Assembly: GCF_001307035.1 (NCBI RefSeq)
Contig: NZ_LKIU01000006.1
Span: forward strand, 88,813-152,812
DNA: 64,000 nt
Direction: 5' to 3'
Origin: Arthrobacter sp. Edens01
GTDB taxonomy: Bacteria > Actinomycetota > Actinomycetes > Actinomycetales > Micrococcaceae
In this document: in pieces, positions 52,014 to 61,963 of the stretch
How the letters are laid out: every line of letters starts with the position of its first letter
How positions within the stretch are numbered: the first letter of the stretch is position 1
The notes under the pieces: model-generated
What the model was told of the DNA's origin: nothing
What the model saw: only the letters and a program-made list of their open reading frames with translations
Database searches by the model: none
Made by a program: the position numbers and the translations under genes

Positions 52014-52991
52014 TTAGAAGCGCACGTTCCGGAGGTACCGGTAGCCCACCTCGGCGGTCTGCAGGGGAGTGACATCCGGCTGGTCATTCTCCACGATGTA
52101 CTCCTTGGGCTGGTGCGCCCGGAAGATGCGCGGGAAATCGATGGTTCCGGTTCCCAGGTCGGCGAAATCTCCCGACGCTTCGCGGTCCTTTACGTGGTAT
52201 TGCAGGGTCTCCTGCGGGGCCTCCCTGATCGTGTCGATGGCGAACTGGACCGGATCTGCAGCACCGACGCCGACGCCGCCGGTGACTGCCCAGTACAGGT
52301 CGACTTCCAGGTGGATCAGCTTCGGGTCAAGGCGGCTGGTGAAGATGTCCCAGGGGGTGAGTCCGCCGCCCAGGTCCGTCGTGAACTCGTGGGCGTGGTT
52401 GTGGTAGCCGTATTTGATGCCCGCGCGTCGCACGACGGCTGCTTCCGCGTTCATCTGGTCTGCCCACCGGTACCAGTCGTCCGCCTTGGTCGAGGCGAGG
52501 TAGGGAACCACCATGTAGGTCTGGCCCAGCGTCCGGGCGTTGGAGATCTTTGTCTGCAGATCCGCCGGGGTGGCACTGATTCCCTCGTGGCTGGACGAGG
52601 CGCGAATTCCCAGACGGTCCAGGGTCCGCTTCATTTCCTTGGCCGTGCGTCCGTACAGTCCGGCCAGTTCCACCCGGTTGTATCCGTACCGGGCAAGCCT
52701 CGCGAAATTCTTATCGATCTCGTCGCCGTTCATGATGGAGCGCAGGGTGTACATCTGGATGCTGATCTGTCCCGGGGGAACGGGCCTGCGGCCCTTGTGT
52801 CCGGGCTTGTCGTGATGCCCCGGCTTGCCGTTGTGGCCGGGTCCCTTGGCGACGGCGGGAGCCGCGCCAAGACCCGCCAGCCCGACGCCGACGCCCGCGG
52901 CAAATGCTCCGCGGATGAAATTGCGACGGTCAACCCCCTTTTTCTCAAGAGAACGATTCAGTGCACCTGTTGCGTCAAATCCAAAGCACAT
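52014..52991 (-). CDS. Tat-exported TIM-barrel sugar isomerase/epimerase-like protein
   Basis: 325 residues. The twin-arginine signal DRRNFIRGAFAAGVGVGLAG ends near residue 48 and is followed by a His/Gly/Lys/Pro-rich linker (GHNGKPGHHDKPGHKG). From residue 75 it is a xylose-isomerase-like barrel with QMYTLRS at the start, SSHEG, YHNHAHEF and VDLYW as metal- and substrate-pocket pieces. Such proteins act on keto-sugars or inosose-type substrates; this one would work outside the membrane. GAAAGG precedes ATG 52991. The ROK regulator gene lies upstream on the same strand. The His-rich linker may bind metal. Confidence 0.87.
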   Translation of the reverse strand: MCFGFDATGALNRSLEKKGVDRRNFIRGAFAAGVGVGLAGLGAAPAVAKGPGHNGKPGHHDKPGHKGRRPVPPGQISIQMYTLRSIMNGDEIDKNFARLARYGYNRVELAGLYGRTAKEMKRTLDRLGIRASSSHEGISATPADLQTKISNARTLGQTYMVVPYLASTKADDWYRWADQMNAEAAVVRRAGIKYGYHNHAHEFTTDLGGGLTPWDIFTSRLDPKLIHLEVDLYWAVTGGVGVGAADPVQFAIDTIREAPQETLQYHVKDREASGDFADLGTGTIDFPRIFRAHQPKEYIVENDQPDVTPLQTAEVGYRYLRNVRF

Positions 52992-54883: not shown

Positions 54884-56149
54884 TTGATCAGGGACACCCA
54901 TAGGGGAATGCCGGCTGACGGGGAGGACCGTGCTGCAACGGCCGCCGCTCAGGAGAGCTGGAGCTACGGCAGAACAGGCATCTGGCTCATCGGAGCACGT
55001 GGATCAGTGGCAACAACTGCCGCAGCAGGGCTGGCGGCGATCGCATCGGGGCTCGTGAAGCCGCAGGGATGCGTCACTGAACACGAAGCATTCCAGGACG
55101 TGATTCTCCCCGGCTACTCAGACCTAGTGGTGGGCGGCCACGACATCAGCGGAGTTGGCATGGCCAAGCAGGCTGAGAGGCTTGTTGAGGCCGGAATGGT
55201 CCCCGGACATCTTCTTGAATCGGTTCGGGCACAGCTGCTTGAGGCCGATCTTCGGGTACGGCCCGGGTACCACCCGGCTGGCACACCGGAGACGCAGGCT
55301 GATGCAGTAAAACGCCTATGCGGCGACATCCTCTCCTTCAAGGAGGCAAACGGGCTGCAGCGGGTTATCGTCCTGGACGTGGCCTCAACGGAAGCCCCGC
55401 CGGAACAGCTCGACGAGTTCTGCGACGCCGGGCTTTTGGAAACCGCGCTCCAGGATCCGGCACGGCACGTCCTGCCCGCAAGCTCAGTAGCTGCCTACGC
55501 GGCCGTCATGGCCGGTTCCCCCTATATCTGCTTTACCCCCTCCACTGCCCTGAATATCCCTGCCCTTTATGAACTGGCCGGAGCCGGCCGGGTTCCGACG
55601 GCAGGCCAGGACGGTAAAACAGGCCAGACCTGGCTGCGCTCGGTACTGGCCCCGGCACTCACAGCGCGAGGGCTGCGGGTGCTTTCATGGGCCGGGACGA
55701 ACCTCCTTGGCGGCGGTGACGGGGCGACACTCGCAGACAGCAGGGCGGTCTCCGGGAAACTGCTCTCGAAGAACCGGGGGCTGAGGGATCTCACCGGGGG
55801 AGCGGTGACCCCCCTGCACATCGACAACGTGCCGGACCTGGGCGAGACCAAGGTTGCGTGGGACCACATCCACGTCGAAGGTTTCCTTGGTTCCCGCCTG
55901 ACGATCCAGACAACGTGGAGCGCCTATGACTCCATGCTCGCGGCTCCAATGGTGCTGGACCTGACGCGCCTTATGGCTCTGGCTGACGCAGCCGGGGAAA
56001 CCGGGCCGATCGGTGCACTCGGGTTCTTCTTCAAGGACCCATGGGGCAGCGCGGAACATTCCTTCTCCCAGCAGACCACCAACCTGGTGCAGTGGGCACT
56101 CGATGCCTCGGCCCGGCTTTCTTCGGCTGCGGGAGGTGACCGGTTGTGA
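54884..56149 (+). CDS. Inositol-3-phosphate-synthase-like sugar phosphate cyclase
   Basis: 421 residues, first gene of the ebo-type operon. The NAD-binding start GIWLIGARGSVATTAAAG is near residue 33. MIPS-type blocks follow: NLLGGGDGATLADSRAV, then NVPDLGETKVAWDHI (with the conserved Lys) and SAYDSMLAAPMVLDL. MIPS turns glucose-6-phosphate into inositol-3-phosphate. The protein is divergent from housekeeping Ino1, so the product may differ. It starts with TTG at 54884, backed by a near-perfect GAGGAGGAAG. The stop overlaps the GTG of the next gene. In other ebo clusters this place is held by EboD, a dehydroquinate-synthase-like cyclase. Confidence 0.85.
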   Translation: MIRDTHRGMPADGEDRAATAAAQESWSYGRTGIWLIGARGSVATTAAAGLAAIASGLVKPQGCVTEHEAFQDVILPGYSDLVVGGHDISGVGMAKQAERLVEAGMVPGHLLESVRAQLLEADLRVRPGYHPAGTPETQADAVKRLCGDILSFKEANGLQRVIVLDVASTEAPPEQLDEFCDAGLLETALQDPARHVLPASSVAAYAAVMAGSPYICFTPSTALNIPALYELAGAGRVPTAGQDGKTGQTWLRSVLAPALTARGLRVLSWAGTNLLGGGDGATLADSRAVSGKLLSKNRGLRDLTGGAVTPLHIDNVPDLGETKVAWDHIHVEGFLGSRLTIQTTWSAYDSMLAAPMVLDLTRLMALADAAGETGPIGALGFFFKDPWGSAEHSFSQQTTNLVQWALDASARLSSAAGGDRL

Positions 56150-57027
56150 GCACCTTCGGCGACTACGTGGAGCTGGTCCGTGCTCCCGCCATCCTCACGG
56201 TTCTGGGCGATACCGCCGCCGGGGCTGCTGCGTCCGGCCGCCTGCTGCGCGGCCGGAGGCTGGGCCTGCCCCTGGCCAGCGCCTGCCTTTATGCCGGCGG
56301 AATGGCCCTGAATGATTACGCGGACCGCGACGTCGATGCCCGCGAACGCCCGGAACGCCCCATCCCCTCCGGGAGGATAAGTGCCCGCCGTGCCCTTGGG
56401 ACAGCATCCGCGCTGACCGCAGCTGGGCTCGGACTGTGTGCCCTGGCCGGCGGCCGGGGCGCGCTGGCAATTGGCATTCCGCTGGCGGCTTCCATCTGGA
56501 CCTATGACCTGGCCGCAAAAAAGCACGCCCTCATAGGCGCTGCCTCCATGGGCAGCTGCCGGGCCCTCGATGTGCTGATGGGTGCGGGGGCCGGCCATGT
56601 CCGGCAGGCACTCGGAGCCGCGGGCATCATGGGTGGACACACGGTCGCTGTGACGCTCCTTTCGCAGGGCGAAGTCGAGGGAACAGACGCGGCAACAGCG
56701 TCCGGCGTCGCGGCCACCACCGGTCTGCTCACCGCTGCATTAATGGCGGGCTCAGCGGGGCCGCCGGCCAGGATGCTCCCGATGCTCGCGGCCACAGCTG
56801 CCTACGCGGTGCGGTGTGCGCCCGCCCAGTTGAGGGCAGCGCGAAATCCGGTGGCACACAACGCGCTCGAAGCGACCAAAGCGGGCATCCGCGCCATGGT
56901 TCCGCTCCAGACAGCGCTCGCGCTCCGTTACGGACACCCCGCCGCCGCCGGCGCACTGGTGGCTGTCGACGTCGTAGGCAGAGTCCTTCGGTCCAGGCCC
57001 GGGGGCAGGAAGGTGAGTGAATCATGA
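56146..57027 (+). CDS. eboC: UbiA-family prenyltransferase (EboC-like)
   Basis: 293 residues, about eight spans. The Asp-rich prenyl-diphosphate motif is NDYADRDVDARERPERPIPSG, seen here in two parts: NDYADRDVD near residue 63 and RERPERPIPSG after it. The second Asp motif near residue 125 is YDLAAKK. It is of the SCO3242-type found in actinobacterial ebo clusters. It probably attaches an isoprenoid to a small polar ring. GTG start overlaps the previous stop; its own stop overlaps the next ATG, so all three are coupled. Confidence 0.88.
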   Translation: MSTFGDYVELVRAPAILTVLGDTAAGAAASGRLLRGRRLGLPLASACLYAGGMALNDYADRDVDARERPERPIPSGRISARRALGTASALTAAGLGLCALAGGRGALAIGIPLAASIWTYDLAAKKHALIGAASMGSCRALDVLMGAGAGHVRQALGAAGIMGGHTVAVTLLSQGEVEGTDAATASGVAATTGLLTAALMAGSAGPPARMLPMLAATAAYAVRCAPAQLRAARNPVAHNALEATKAGIRAMVPLQTALALRYGHPAAAGALVAVDVVGRVLRSRPGGRKVSES

Positions 57028-58511
57028 GTACCCCATCGCCGCTTCCCTTCAGCATTGGATACGGCACCAACGGTTTTACGGACCACCCCCTGCCGGATGT
57101 GCTGGAGCTGCTGCACGAGCTTGGTTACGGCGCGGTTGCCCTGACACTCGGCCACCCGCACCTGGACCCGTATGCCCCGGATCTGGACGCCCGGCTGGGT
57201 TCCCTGCGCAGCCGTCTGGACGAGCTGGATCTCCGGGTGGTCATCGAGACGGGAACGCGGTTCCTCCTGAACCGAAAGGAGAAGCACCGCCCCGCCCTTG
57301 TTGATGAAGAGGCTGCAGCGCGCGTCGATTTCCTGCTCCGGGCGGTGGACATCGCGGCGGCGCTGAACGCCGAGTGTGTCTCCTTCTTCTCCGGGATCCT
57401 GCCTCCCGGTGCCAGTCCGGAGTCCGGGTGGCAGCGGCTGGAAACCAGGGTTGCCGAGGTTCTCCGGCATGCTGCCGGCAAGGGGGTCCTGCTCGCCATT
57501 GAACCGGAACCCGGAATGTTCGTGGAGACCGTCGCCGACGCGCTCGCGCTGCGAACCCGGCTGGGCAACCCCGATGGCCTTGGCCTGACGGTGGACATCG
57601 GACACTGCGTGGTGGTTGAACCAGACGGCGTGCGCGGTGCGCTGCTCGAGGCCGGGCCGCTGCTCGCCAACGTCCAGCTCGATGACATGCGGTCCGCCGC
57701 ACACGAGCACCTTCCCTTCGGTGAAGGCGAGGTCGACGTTTCGCTGGCGCTGGCAACACTCGCTGAACTGAACTACCGCGGGGTTGCCGCCGTCGAACTT
57801 CCCCGGCACTCCTTCGACGCGCCGAACCTGGCCGCCCGAAGCATGGCTGTGCTGCAAGCGGCCTGGCGGGAGGTCCAGGCCGGCAAGGCCGCGGAACAGT
57901 GGCTGCAGGAGGGCAAAGCCCGGCTGGCCGCAGACCCCGGAGCCCTGCCCGGACTCTTCGCTACAGCCGGCCGCAGCGTCGGCCGCACCCCGCTCCGCCC
58001 GGATGCCGATCCGACGGGAGTCCTCCACGGCAGCGTGGGTGATCACGTCCGCGGCCAGCTTGTCCGGCACCTGTTGGACCTCATGCCACCGCAGGAACTG
58101 GCCGAGACAGTCCTGTCGCTCTATGACAGGGGAGACTCCTCCGAACGGCGCGGAGTCCTGAGAGGACTCGGCGCCCTGGCAGAGGCCCAGCCGGACCTTC
58201 CGGCGCCCGTGGTTGCAGCCGGCGTGCAGATCACGGCCGACGCACTGCGGACGAATGAAACCGGTCTTGTCGCTGCCGCAGCCGGTCCCTTCGCCGCTGC
58301 CTACCTGGACCAGCACAACTGGCGGCACGCGGTCCTCAAACTCGTGTTCATGGGGGTCAGCCTTACCGCCGTCACGGATCTGCAGGACCGCGCTGATGAC
58401 GAACTGGCGCGCATGGCCGCTGACTTCGCCGCCGAAAGGGAAGCAGCCGGGCGCACCGTACCGGATGACGTTCACCTGCTGCTGAACCGGGCAGCCACCA
58501 ACCTTCCGTAA
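57024..58511 (+). CDS. eboA: TIM-barrel isomerase fused to EboA domain
   Basis: 495 residues. Residues 5-285 form a xylose-isomerase-like barrel: FSIGYGTNGFTDHPL, then IEPEPGMFVETV, VDIGHCVVVEP and VELPRHSFDAPN. Residues about 330-495 match EboA: LYDRGDSSERRGVLRGL, then DALRTNETGLVAAA and NWRHAVLKLVFMGVSL. In many actinobacteria these are two neighbouring genes; here they are one reading frame. EboA has no known chemistry. The ATG overlaps the stop of the UbiA gene. It lies 12 bases before eboB. Confidence 0.88.
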   Translation: MSTPSPLPFSIGYGTNGFTDHPLPDVLELLHELGYGAVALTLGHPHLDPYAPDLDARLGSLRSRLDELDLRVVIETGTRFLLNRKEKHRPALVDEEAAARVDFLLRAVDIAAALNAECVSFFSGILPPGASPESGWQRLETRVAEVLRHAAGKGVLLAIEPEPGMFVETVADALALRTRLGNPDGLGLTVDIGHCVVVEPDGVRGALLEAGPLLANVQLDDMRSAAHEHLPFGEGEVDVSLALATLAELNYRGVAAVELPRHSFDAPNLAARSMAVLQAAWREVQAGKAAEQWLQEGKARLAADPGALPGLFATAGRSVGRTPLRPDADPTGVLHGSVGDHVRGQLVRHLLDLMPPQELAETVLSLYDRGDSSERRGVLRGLGALAEAQPDLPAPVVAAGVQITADALRTNETGLVAAAAGPFAAAYLDQHNWRHAVLKLVFMGVSLTAVTDLQDRADDELARMAADFAAEREAAGRTVPDDVHLLLNRAATNLP

Positions 58512-58523
58512 GGAGCACCAGAC

Positions 58524-59402
58524 ATGCGCATCTTCGATCCGCACATCCACATGACAAGCCGCACCACCGATGACTACGCCGCGCTCTACGCCAGCGGCGT
58601 CCGGGCACTCGTCGAACCGGCCTTTTGGCTTGGACAGCCCAGGACAAATGTCGGATCCTTCATCGACTATTTTGATTCGCTCCTGGGCTGGGAGCGGTTC
58701 CGCGCCTCGCAGTTCGGCATCCGCCACCACGCCACGATTGCGCTGAATCCCAAGGAAGCCAACGACCCCAGATGTGTTCCCGTCCTGGAGGAGATCCCCA
58801 GGTACCTGGCGAAGGAAGGCGTCGTTGCCGTCGGGGAGATCGGCTTCGATTCAATGACCCCGGCGGAGGACAAGGCGTTCATCCGCCAGCTGGAACTCGC
58901 CGCAGAGTTCTCCCTGCCTGCGCTGGTGCATACCCCGCACCGGGAGAAACTCCTGGGCACCCGGCGAACGCTGGACATCATCCGTGATTCCCCGCTTGCT
59001 CCTTCCATGGTGGTGGTTGACCACCTGAACGAAACGAACGCCGGAATCGTGAAGGACGCCGGAGCCTGGATGGGATTCTCCATCTACCCGGACACGAAGA
59101 TGGACGAGAAACGCCTGGTCGCGATCCTCCACGAGTACGGAACCGAGAAGGCGCTGGTGAACTCGGCGGCCGACTGGGGGAAGTCCGACCCGCTCAAGAC
59201 GGCGAGCACAGCGAAAGCGATGCTTGCCGGCGGGTTCTCGGAGAGCGACGTCGACCGTGTCCTGTGGCAGAACCCGGTGGACTTCTACGGCCAAAGCGGG
59301 CAGCTGATCCTGGATCCAATCCCGGGATTCGATGAAGCTGAGTCCGGCGGAGCGGCCGCGACGTTCGAAGGCAATTCCCTCCTTCGGGGGGCCCGCGCCT
59401 GA
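58524..59402 (+). CDS. eboB: TatD-like metal hydrolase (EboB)
   Basis: 292 residues. Amidohydrolase/TatD metal ligands are visible: DPHIHM near the start, GEIGFDSM, HTPHREK, DHLNET and SAADWG near residue 215. TatD relatives are DNases or small-molecule hydrolases; EboB members are a distinct branch. AAGGAG precedes the ATG. Its TGA shares one base with the ATG of eboE. Confidence 0.88.
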   Translation: MRIFDPHIHMTSRTTDDYAALYASGVRALVEPAFWLGQPRTNVGSFIDYFDSLLGWERFRASQFGIRHHATIALNPKEANDPRCVPVLEEIPRYLAKEGVVAVGEIGFDSMTPAEDKAFIRQLELAAEFSLPALVHTPHREKLLGTRRTLDIIRDSPLAPSMVVVDHLNETNAGIVKDAGAWMGFSIYPDTKMDEKRLVAILHEYGTEKALVNSAADWGKSDPLKTASTAKAMLAGGFSESDVDRVLWQNPVDFYGQSGQLILDPIPGFDEAESGGAAATFEGNSLLRGARA

Positions 59403-60526
59403 TGGAGCTTTCCTACTGCACCAACGTGCACCCGGCCGAGGACCTGGACGGCGTCATCCGGCAGCTGCGCGAATACGCCGGCCCGATTCGGCGGCGGGCA
59501 GGACTGGACGTTCTCGGCGTCGGGCTCTGGCTGCCGGCCGGGCTCGCCCGCCGCCTGGCGGAGAATCCGGGGGATAGGGAGCTGCTTCGCGGGGTCCTCT
59601 CCGAGCAGGGCCTGCAGATACATACCCTCAACGCGTTTCCCTACGGCGGGTTCCACAACGAGGTTGTGAAGACTGACGTCTACCTGCCCACGTGGGCCCA
59701 GCCGGAGCGGCTGCGTTACACGCTTGAGTGTGCTGAAGTCCTGGCTGCCCTCCTTCCCGAAGGCACAGCGGGGTCCATCTCTACGCTGCCGCTTGGCTGG
59801 CGTGAGCCGTGGACCGCGGAGGACGACGCCGCTGCCACCACCGCATTCGCCCTGCTGTGCGAAGGCCTGAAGGCGCTCAGGGAGCGGACCGGAAAGATAG
59901 TCCGCGTAGCCGTGGAACCGGAACCGGGGTGTGCGCTGGATAATGTCTCGGACGTTGTCGATTGGCTGGCTGCCCGGATCTCCAGGGGGATCGATCCCGA
60001 CTGCGTCGGCCTGTGCCTGGACACCTGTCACCTGGCGGTGTCCTTCGCGGACCCTCTCGACGCCGTGCGCAGCGTCGGAGATGCAGGCCTGCGCATCGTA
60101 AAAGTCCAGGCCTCTGCCGCCCTGCACGTGGACGAGCCTTCTACGAAGGCAGCGCGCCGGGCGCTGGAGAGGTTCGCAGAACCGCGCTACCTGCACCAGG
60201 TACGGGAACTGGACCTCGACGGGACCATTCTGACGGCGGATGACCTGCCGCAGGCACTCGGTGAGCTCCCGGGCAGGGGTCCCTGGCGGATCCACTTCCA
60301 TATGCCGCTGCACCTGGTGCCCGTACCTCCCCTGGACACGACGGTTGAAGTGCTGGAAAGGACCGTGGCGGAAGTGGGCTCCCTCCCGTACGGGGAGGAG
60401 GTGCACCTGGACATCGAGACCTACACCTGGAGTGTCCTGCCCGGGAAAACAGCTGACCTGGTCGAAGGAATAGCCGGAGAAATCGCCTGGGCGCAGTCCC
60501 GCCTGCTGGCCCCTGCAGCGTCCTGA
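59402..60526 (+). CDS. eboE: EboE, TIM-barrel metabolite traffic protein
   Basis: 374 residues. MELSYCTNVHPAEDLDGVI is the typical EboE start. Other blocks are LNAFPYGGFH, VAVEPEPGCALDNV, LCLDTCHLAVSF and IHFHMPLH, which together give a barrel with several metal-binding His/Glu/Asp. It resembles AP-endonuclease-2-type isomerases. In Nostoc punctiforme the ebo genes are needed to move a scytonemin precursor to the periplasm, hence the name. It overlaps eboB by one base. Confidence 0.92.
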   Translation: MELSYCTNVHPAEDLDGVIRQLREYAGPIRRRAGLDVLGVGLWLPAGLARRLAENPGDRELLRGVLSEQGLQIHTLNAFPYGGFHNEVVKTDVYLPTWAQPERLRYTLECAEVLAALLPEGTAGSISTLPLGWREPWTAEDDAAATTAFALLCEGLKALRERTGKIVRVAVEPEPGCALDNVSDVVDWLAARISRGIDPDCVGLCLDTCHLAVSFADPLDAVRSVGDAGLRIVKVQASAALHVDEPSTKAARRALERFAEPRYLHQVRELDLDGTILTADDLPQALGELPGRGPWRIHFHMPLHLVPVPPLDTTVEVLERTVAEVGSLPYGEEVHLDIETYTWSVLPGKTADLVEGIAGEIAWAQSRLLAPAAS

Positions 60527-60562
60527 CCCCAGCCCCGCCCTGCGCCAACCCAAGGAGAGAAG

Positions 60563-61963
60563 TTGAAACCGGTACTGCTGCTCGACGTCGTAGGGCTCAC
60601 CGCCCAGTCGCTCCGCGACATGCCCCGCCTGTCCAGGCTCGCTGGAACGGGCTGGTCCTCGGAACTGGCCACGGTACTTCCTGCCGTGACCTGCACCGTC
60701 CAGTCCACGATGCTCACCGGCCTCCCGCCGGCTGAACACGGGATTGTTGGCAACGGCTGGTATTTCCGCGAACTGGGGGACGTGTTCCTGTGGCGCCAGC
60801 ACAACAAGCTGGTTGGCGGCGAAAAGATTTGGGAAAGCGCCCGCCGCAAGGAACCCGACTACCGGGCGGGCAACGTCTGCTGGTGGTACGCCATGGGAAT
60901 GTCCACGGACATGACAGTGACGCCCCGGCCGATTTATCACGCCGACGGCCGCAAATCGCCGGATGCCTATATCCGGCCCCCGGCCCTGCACGACGATCTG
61001 GTGTCCCGGTACGGCGAGTTTCCGCTGTTTCAGTACTGGGGTCCGGGGGCGGGCATCCAGTCTTCCCAGTGGATCATTGAATCGACCAGGCACCTGATGC
61101 GGACCCAGTCGCCGGAGCTGCTTATGGCCTACGTTCCGCACCTGGACTACGACCTTCAGCGGTTTGGCCCCAGCCACCCCCAGGCTGCCCGCGCAGCCGC
61201 CGATCTTGATGCTGCGCTGGCTCCGTTGCTGGATGAAGCCGAAGCGAGAGGGTACGCAGTCATCGCCGTATCGGAGTACGGCATCGAAGACGCGCACCTG
61301 CCCGTGGACATCAACCGCGTCCTGCGCAGGGAGGGCCTGCTGGAAGTCTACGTTCAGGACGGGAAAGAGCAGCTGGATACCTGGACCTCCCGTGCCTTTG
61401 CCGTCGCAGACCATCAGGTGGCCCACGTTTACGTTCAGGACGCCGGGGACGTTGCCCGGACCGCGGAGATCCTCAGGGCAACAAGCGGAATCGATGAAGT
61501 CCTGGACCGCCGGGCCCAGGCTAAGTACGGGCTGGACCACGAGCGGTCCGGTGAACTCGTTGTCATCGCGGAGCCGGGCGCCTGGTTCACGTACTACTTC
61601 TGGCTCGATGATGCCCGTGCGCCCGAATACGCACGCGGCGTGGATATCCACCGGAAGCCGGGGTACGACCCGAGCGAACTCATTTTTAATCCCGCGGACA
61701 AACTGGCGAAGGCAAAAGCAGGCCTGAACCTGGTCAGGAAAAAGGCCGGGCTGCGGTATGCCATGAGCACCGTGTCCCTGGATCCCGGCCATATCCGGGG
61801 AACCCATGGGCGGCTTCCCGGATCCCGGGACAGCACGCCGCTGGTGATCTCCTCCGAGGACAGAATGCCGCCGTTTGCCGAGGAACTGATTCGGCTGGGG
61901 AAACCCATCCCCGCTGCCTCGGTGAAATCGCTGGTCCTGCAGACCCAGGGACTGCCTGAATGA
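60563..61963 (+). CDS. eboF: EboF-like alkaline phosphatase/phosphodiesterase superfamily protein
   Basis: 466 residues. LLLDVVGLT gives the first metal Asp, and PAVTCTVQSTMLTG near residue 43 the nucleophile Thr. YVPHLDYDLQRFGP gives a second Asp. Where many relatives read SDHGM, this protein has SEYGIED, so one metal site differs. No secretion signal. It starts with TTG at 60563 after AAGGAGAGA; an ATG is not available nearby. Last gene of the ebo-type operon, 36 bases after eboE. A role in releasing phosphate from an intermediate is reasonable. Confidence 0.86.
   Translation: MKPVLLLDVVGLTAQSLRDMPRLSRLAGTGWSSELATVLPAVTCTVQSTMLTGLPPAEHGIVGNGWYFRELGDVFLWRQHNKLVGGEKIWESARRKEPDYRAGNVCWWYAMGMSTDMTVTPRPIYHADGRKSPDAYIRPPALHDDLVSRYGEFPLFQYWGPGAGIQSSQWIIESTRHLMRTQSPELLMAYVPHLDYDLQRFGPSHPQAARAAADLDAALAPLLDEAEARGYAVIAVSEYGIEDAHLPVDINRVLRREGLLEVYVQDGKEQLDTWTSRAFAVADHQVAHVYVQDAGDVARTAEILRATSGIDEVLDRRAQAKYGLDHERSGELVVIAEPGAWFTYYFWLDDARAPEYARGVDIHRKPGYDPSELIFNPADKLAKAKAGLNLVRKKAGLRYAMSTVSLDPGHIRGTHGRLPGSRDSTPLVISSEDRMPPFAEELIRLGKPIPAASVKSLVLQTQGLPE

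Follow-up and report, generated by a model that had tools for sequence, protein, structure and literature searches.

The window analysed here, a stretch of 64,000 nucleotides from Arthrobacter sp. Edens01 (contig NZ_LKIU01000006.1, positions 88,813 to 152,812; coordinates below are counted from its first letter), carries six ebo-type genes at 54884-61963. A cyclase resembling myo-inositol-phosphate synthase (MIPS) was found at the place expected for EboD, the dehydroquinate (DHQ)-synthase-like cyclase of other ebo clusters, and EboD was absent, as the original prediction had stated. Based on a comparison of ebo loci, this actinobacterial variant is postulated to use a module of MIPS and a TIM barrel in place of EboD for making a cyclitol that would then be prenylated by the UbiA-type enzyme of the operon, a reading that we hold with about even confidence.

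The six-gene ebo-type operon proved to be real. All of its genes were found on the + strand at the coordinates described earlier, and their families were matched by profile:

54884-56149, + strand: MIPS-like sugar-phosphate cyclase (ebo-type myo-inositol-phosphate synthase), TTG start; PF07994 160 bits, PF01658 94 bits
56146-57027, + strand: UbiA-superfamily prenyltransferase of the SCO3242 family, in the EboC position; NF045897 310 bits (cut-off 260)
57024-58511, + strand: fusion of a xylose-isomerase-like TIM barrel and an EboA domain; PF01261 126 bits, NF035938 144 bits (cut-off 50)
58524-59402, + strand: EboB, TatD-like metal hydrolase; PF01026 48 bits, clustering with EboB of other actinobacterial ebo loci
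59402-60526, + strand: EboE, xylose-isomerase-like TIM barrel; NF035939 421 bits (cut-off 250)
60563-61963, + strand: EboF, type I phosphodiesterase / nucleotide pyrophosphatase family; PF01663 202 bits

Since neighbouring genes either overlap (by 4, 4 and 1 bases) or are separated by short gaps (12 and 36 bases), the six were read as one tight operon. A promoter and terminator scan of the region gave counts close to those from shuffled sequence. The TTG start of the cyclase is putative, and its relatives align from approximately residue 28 on. In the fusion gene, the PF01261 barrel corresponds to residues 28-279 (~57024-57878) and the EboA domain to residues 340-486 (~58041-58481); in the Streptomyces loci L067 and L068, the TIM barrel and EboA are two separate, adjoining genes with no fusion. 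EboF matched the EBOF profile, which was built partly from this same protein, with 774 bits. The naming of the prenyltransferase as EboC held for its position in the operon but not for its profile score, which at 155 bits fell below the NF035940 (EboC) cut-off of 250. This cut-off was also missed by the UbiA proteins of two ebo loci from outside the actinobacteria, L066, a locus with EboD (96 bits), and L105, without EboD (95 bits), while that of L074 passed with 342 bits.

The whole genome was searched with an EboD profile (A2, seven sequences) for which true EboD proteins in two control records scored 641 and 655 bits. The sole match was AroB with 159 bits, located between aroK (shikimate kinase) and efp/nusB. 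An EboD hidden elsewhere in the genome, which the original prediction had named as a finding that would undermine it, was therefore rejected. Similarly, none of the 29 actinobacterial genomes with an EboE match gave an EboD-level match, the best being a full-length cyclase-family match of 199 bits in genome G150.

Among 296 evenly drawn Actinomycetota genomes, 13 had EboE above cut-off (14 had any match); among 148 closer relatives 17 did, the Arthrobacter sp. Edens01 genome being included in both sets. The same operon was present in seven other genomes of the genus, and an EboE match was absent from at least 20 genus members among those listed. The presence of the operon is not due to chance. 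An ebo-type MIPS profile (A3), applied to the top six candidates of each genome, gave scores above 480 bits in exactly the 13 of the 296 genomes that have EboE above cut-off, the others reaching 352 bits at most. Eight of these 13 contribute to the profile; the remaining five scored 508-534.

A total of 123 EboE loci were then classified by profile scan, comprising the window, 30 actinobacterial loci, 11 plasmid loci, 80 named-genome contigs (the best 80 of at least 588 confirmed EboE candidates) and one from Gemmatimonadota. EboD was present in 76 and MIPS in 29; neither was found in 18, and no locus had both. An extra TIM barrel accompanied MIPS in all 29 loci, and was detected in none of the 76 EboD loci and in four of the 18 with neither cyclase, with the qualification that this count, like those given below for the flanking genes, relied on profiles or queries derived from the operon itself and close relatives of it, which distant relatives can escape. 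MIPS and the TIM barrel were also found together in 6/6 further actinobacterial records. Because of this association, the MIPS form looks like a two-gene module. The earlier suggestion that the unrelated cyclases can stand in for one another was supported in that they are nearly exclusive across loci, but the replacement does not look like a one-for-one swap.

Lone EboE genes and loci at contig edges were counted among the 18 with neither cyclase. The seven actinobacterial ones consisted of three contig-edge loci, two lone EboE genes, one additional cluster in a genome that has MIPS in its first, and the locus of G279, in which both MIPS genes of the genome are located elsewhere. For the 11 non-actinobacterial loci, EboD was found elsewhere in the genome in eight (467-607 bits), and no EboD was found in the genomes of the other three (L087, L105 and L118). 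L087 and L105 are alphaproteobacterial ebo loci with UbiA, EboA, EboB, EboE and EboF, and their genome bins yielded no EboD; the place expected for it in L105 is taken by a histidine-kinase-like open reading frame. The sole MIPS of each bin lies in a separate YcaO-type cluster (full in L198, partial in L199), and is at most a candidate ebo cyclase. One of the actinobacterial EboE genes standing alone (L062:9040-10221, G398) is closer to alphaproteobacterial EboE, with 48% identity to that of L105.

Outside Actinomycetota, 200 Gemmatimonadota genomes were scanned, with the nine best candidates of each being scored, and ebo-type MIPS above 480 bits was found in three. In Gemmatirosa (L070) and G543 (L242), consecutive UbiA, MIPS and TIM genes adjoin EboF, EboB and EboE, and there is no EboD. 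The EboE of G543 (L242:5766-6936) is broken across two frames, possibly through a sequencing error or gene decay. In the metagenome bin G437, one contig of 8.4 kb ends in TIM-MIPS-UbiA and another, of 4.6 kb, carries UbiA-EboD-EboE-EboF. Their UbiA fragments cover a common part of the model but differ in sequence, and the contig ends have no shared overlap, so the two cyclases belong to two loci or two strains. The mutual exclusion of EboD and MIPS, which had been proposed as a check, therefore held for all 123 loci but was dropped as a strict law; it is strong, not absolute.

Careful trees were constructed from hand-picked subsets (41-43 of 103-119 rows, with proteins of less than 60% of the model length excluded), and were chosen after a quick EboE tree had a worse likelihood than its constrained tree. 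In these, Gemmatimonadota EboE grouped with Rokubacteria within the EboD-type rows (support 99/95 and 100/98), and Gemmatimonadota EboB was placed among EboD-type rows of Chloroflexota, Deinococcus and Acidobacteriota. In approximately unbiased (AU) tests of the Gemmatimonadota proteins, grouping with actinobacteria (p 9e-152) and with Rokubacteria/Myxococcota (p 0.0007) were both rejected for EboB. For UbiA, the Rokubacteria/Myxococcota grouping was rejected (p 0.0003) and the actinobacterial grouping was not (0.38). For EboE and EboF neither grouping was rejected, with p values of 0.16 and 0.14, respectively, for the actinobacterial one and of 0.29 and 0.45 for that with Rokubacteria/Myxococcota. 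From their placement, Gemmatimonadota EboB clearly, and EboE probably, belong to EboD-type lineages. Since two cyclase-label changes were needed on the EboE, EboB, EboF and UbiA trees, the MIPS module probably entered at least twice, a conclusion that EboB alone makes firm.

The sequence of the cyclase was compared with those of characterised relatives. The nearest solved structures were Archaeoglobus fulgidus Ino1 (1u1i, 177 bits) and 7nwr (160 bits), and the Ino1 structure 1gr0, which we take to be of the Mycobacterium tuberculosis type, was barely detected. Both Pfam domains were above cut-off and the active-site Lys, Asp and Asn positions were intact, as in the MIPS family. In a tree, the ebo cyclases fell into clades of their own, distinct from generic MIPS, housekeeping Ino1 and the MIPS of YcaO clusters. 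Active-site rows were compared for 28 actinobacterial ebo, three Gemmatimonadota ebo, eight YcaO-cluster, 25 generic and 23 housekeeping proteins. Nine positions (A. fulgidus numbering) were identical in all rows, namely 225, 229, 255, 261, 274, 306 and 332, picked as what we take to be active-site residues, and 278 and 367, which are those altered in the aligned mutant structure chains.

For the prenyltransferase, the NDxxDxxxD motif (N, D, D, D) and the Arg of the CR motif were present in 28/28 actinobacterial MIPS-type rows, that of the operon included. In EboD-type rows the CR-motif Arg was found in 67/67 and the Asp-rich NDxxDxxxD motif in 66/67. The two types differed at UbiA position 14, with Ala in 28/28 MIPS-type rows against Asn in 65/66 EboD-type rows, and at position 58, with Ala in 26/28 against Phe in 55/66. 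These differences suggest that the two types may have different acceptors. The three Gemmatimonadota rows, tallied apart, had Ala at both positions, including L079, which lies beside EboD. As these three form one clade, with 63-71% identity, in which L070 and L242 lie beside MIPS, UbiA was rejected as a strict tracker of the cyclase.

In the proposed route, the cyclase would use NAD to convert a hexose phosphate, most likely glucose-6-phosphate, to an inositol-phosphate-like cyclitol, and the linked TIM barrel would isomerise or epimerise the ring, thereby changing its stereochemistry or oxidation pattern. The membrane UbiA enzyme would couple the ring to a polyprenyl chain, probably a dedicated one; a polyprenyl diphosphate synthase gene adjoins several such operons. 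EboE, EboB and EboF may then be responsible for later modification and finishing. The product would be a membrane-bound prenylated cyclitol used in chemistry beyond the cytoplasm. It would either carry metabolites across the membrane or partner exported enzymes, which would fit the genes for exported sugar enzymes in the vicinity and the setting of non-ribosomal peptide synthetase (NRPS) and polyketide synthase (PKS) genes on Streptomyces plasmids. EboD-type clusters would follow the same route with the ring coming from the DHQ-synthase-like cyclase. A broader and more tentative proposal, which we regard as possible, though less likely than the route itself, is that two unrelated cyclase families slotted independently into one prenylated-cyclitol pathway, whose product would act as a membrane carrier or cofactor for many metabolites at the outer face, with the head group in actinobacteria and some Gemmatimonadota being derived from inositol phosphate.

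In the papers cited below the EboD substrate is a guess, and the MIPS form offers a clue to the ring precursor of the ebo product. It points to common, commercially available compounds, glucose-6-phosphate and inositol phosphates, and it occurs in culturable actinobacteria, so the precursor is directly testable at the bench. The MIPS and EboD forms also amount to a natural swap experiment.

Several findings weigh against the proposed route. A. fulgidus positions 259-260 are occupied by Gly-Gly in all 28 ebo cyclases from actinobacteria; position 259 is Asn in the three Gemmatimonadota ebo, eight YcaO-cluster, 25 generic and 23 housekeeping proteins and Asp in A. fulgidus. The equivalent yeast Asn touches the substrate. 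Given Gly where the other MIPS compared have Asn or Asp, the substrate or product of the cyclase may be altered. The MIPS family retains the phosphate on its ring product; DHQ-synthase-type cyclases are described as eliminating it (PMC5133447). Because of this difference, and because no recognised inositol monophosphatase was found among the six operon genes, the rings of the MIPS and EboD forms could not be identical unless the substrate or steps differ. Much of the cyclase pattern is explained by shared descent, since 27 of the 29 MIPS loci are from Actinomycetota. The AU tests for EboE, EboF and UbiA are compatible with a single actinobacterial-Gemmatimonadota clade, and G437 carries both EboD and ebo-type MIPS. 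Two of the actinobacterial genomes with an EboE match, G268 and G404, have only one MIPS gene each. A barrel related to the ebo TIM accompanies MIPS in the non-ebo YcaO cluster, and the EboD locus of Ketogulonicigenium (L071) contains an annotated sugar phosphate isomerase/epimerase, with two Gfo/Idh/MocA genes, that was missed by the TIM profile. With regard to chemistry, a heterologously expressed EboC homologue was reported to farnesylate quinoline acids in vitro, the 14 acceptors tested being aromatic (PMC9235831), and EDB, an EboD-containing ebo cluster of Pseudomonas fluorescens, was reported to convert tryptophan to indole compounds (PMC9655573).

The cyclase might instead use another sugar phosphate, such as sedoheptulose-7-phosphate, and arrive by convergence at the same ring as EboD. 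The remaining pathway is largely shared by the two forms, and the MIPS fold family includes a five-membered-cyclitol-phosphate synthase (6k96), so its substrates can change; the Gly at position 259 would fit such a change. However, the nine active-site positions are unaltered, the usual Asn is kept in the Gemmatimonadota ebo cyclases (3/3), and the UbiA differences suggest different acceptors. This explanation is considered unlikely.

We are similarly doubtful that MIPS and EboD give different precursors, the EboD step having been lost, such that the two forms would make unrelated compounds with shared late enzymes. The constant pairing of MIPS with an additional barrel that the profile did not find in 76/76 EboD loci would be expected in that case, and G437 may hold both cyclases. 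The closely similar Gemmatimonadota UbiA proteins found beside either cyclase argue against this reading.

The genes surrounding the operon bear on the role of the product. The original range enclosed the six genes but left out conserved flanking genes, which are as follows:

52014-52991, - strand: twin-arginine translocation (Tat)-type exported xylose-isomerase-like barrel, weakly IolE-like; PF01261 43 bits, IolE model 29 bits
53361-54569, - strand: ROK-family regulator, divergent from the operon, conserved flank; PF00480 193 bits
62164-64000, continuing beyond the window, + strand: secreted-looking glucose/sorbosone-dehydrogenase (GSDH)-like protein with a PKD domain (GSDH-PKD); PF07995 97 bits, PKD 53 bits

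The Tat-type barrel has an RRNFIR motif by its N terminus, identified by eye, and the full-length GSDH-PKD protein has 739 aa (L250). All three flanking genes were conserved in 8/8 close relatives (seven of the genus and one of the family). Across the 40 actinobacterial or Gemmatimonadota loci, relatives of the Tat-type barrel were found by the operon in 19, mostly with 26-31% identity beyond close relatives, relatives of GSDH also in 19, and those of the ROK regulator in 14 (13 when 37 loci were counted). Neither GSDH nor Tat-barrel relatives were found at the 80 named-genome loci, a weak absence as the queries were the proteins of the Arthrobacter genome itself. A polyprenyl diphosphate synthase gene (PF00348) lies ~1.5 kb beyond the GSDH gene, outside the window, and is also near the operon in 8/8 relatives. 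In three distant lineages such a gene adjoins the operon directly, being upstream of MIPS in L019, downstream of EboF in L026 and convergent in L031. On Streptomyces plasmids, one ebo operon is less than 5 kb from an NRPS gene and another is near type II PKS genes (L253); a plasmid operon also adjoins genes annotated as ScyD/ScyE family and Tat-signal, with multicopper-oxidase genes near.

Many MIPS-form operons lie near a gene for a secreted GSDH-like protein, a ScyD/ScyE-family protein, a Tat-type barrel or a multicopper oxidase, so the product could be a redox cofactor or co-substrate of exported enzymes that oxidise sugars or metabolites, and not a vehicle for moving metabolites. The authors of the 2016 paper were likewise unable to rule out that it acts as a cofactor (PMC5133447). 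However, these flanking enzymes vary between lineages, and the Nostoc ebo cluster was reported to be responsible for excretion of scytonemin intermediates (PMC6282210). A cofactor role of this kind is accordingly judged to be improbable.

In a last alternative, the cyclase would be the ordinary cellular source of inositol for phosphatidylinositol and mycothiol and would lie in the operon by happenstance, as could be imagined from G268 and G404, which have this MIPS alone; we disfavour it strongly, as the window's own genome encodes a second MIPS that is a canonical actinobacterial Ino1, two MIPS genes are present in 27 of the 29 actinobacterial genomes with an EboE match, and, among the 296 Actinomycetota genomes, the ebo cyclase above 480 bits occurs only with EboE. 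The concern, raised with the original prediction, that the operon cyclase might be the only housekeeping Ino1 of the cell was thereby removed. In G051, G075 and G097 the second MIPS is of the generic type, not the Ino1 type, and in G279 it clusters with the YcaO-cluster type, not with the ebo cyclases.

The first interpretation was therefore partly supported overall. Its central idea of a prenylated cyclitol is not new, as an isoprenoid-cyclitol ebo product was proposed in 2016, in a paper that also guessed sedoheptulose-7-phosphate as the EboD substrate and mentioned actinobacterial xylose-isomerase-EboA hybrids (PMC5133447). A carrier consisting of a cyclitol plus lipid was discussed in 2018 (PMC6282210, mBio). 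By occurrence counts, the word 'inositol' is absent from the main texts of PMC5133447, PMC6282210 and PMC9235831, and no description of the MIPS form of ebo was found in the literature searched, a search with most subscription journals and preprints outside it.

Compared with the ebo clusters of cyanobacteria, Bacteroidota and eustigmatophyte plastids and the P. fluorescens EDB cluster, the window operon shares EboE and EboA above cut-offs, a compact arrangement, and proteins of the EboB, EboF and UbiA types. It differs in having MIPS and the extra TIM barrel instead of EboD, in its UbiA, which is of the SCO3242 family and below the EboC cut-off, and in the fusion of EboA to a barrel. The NF045897 family is named after SCO3242 of S. 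coelicolor, whose neighbour by number is annotated as MIPS. SCO3242 ('putative transferase') and SCO3243 ('myo-inositol phosphate synthase') were listed as genes of the calcium-dependent antibiotic (CDA) cluster (PMC3610822) and not as ebo genes. Both are read here as probable ebo genes. Relative to A. fulgidus Ino1 (1u1i) and other MIPS, the ebo cyclases belong to the same sequence family and share the nine active-site positions, but form a distinct clade, of which the actinobacterial members have the Gly-Gly change.

MIPS and a related TIM barrel are also shared with a MIPS-YcaO-TIM-GT4-PIG-L cluster (G447, actinobacterial family f18 and partly G440), which has no ebo genes in the stretch and instead encodes YcaO, a methyltransferase, Gfo/Idh/MocA, a glycosyltransferase and a PIG-L deacetylase. 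In L198:8911-17655 (G447) and in L200-L205, and partly in L199 and L206, the cluster comprised MIPS, an unknown protein, a methyltransferase, Gfo/Idh/MocA, YcaO, TIM, glycosyltransferase family 4 (GT4) and PIG-L. Its hosts are one actinobacterial family and alphaproteobacterial bins, and it seems to encode a pathway similar to that of mycothiol that includes a YcaO step.

Further gene arrangements were observed around ebo genes. Downstream of the window, L250:2480-7605 holds a second ROK regulator, the polyprenyl synthase and a sugar-type ABC transporter, which are kept in the eight close relatives. On a plasmid of Streptomyces sp. NBC_01244 (L069:7971-9149), a lone EboE is located in a type II PKS region without other ebo genes. 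In the EboD-type clusters of Mycetohabitans (L073:3987-5069) and Aureibacter (L074:2832-4100), an annotated ferritin-like gene lies directly upstream.

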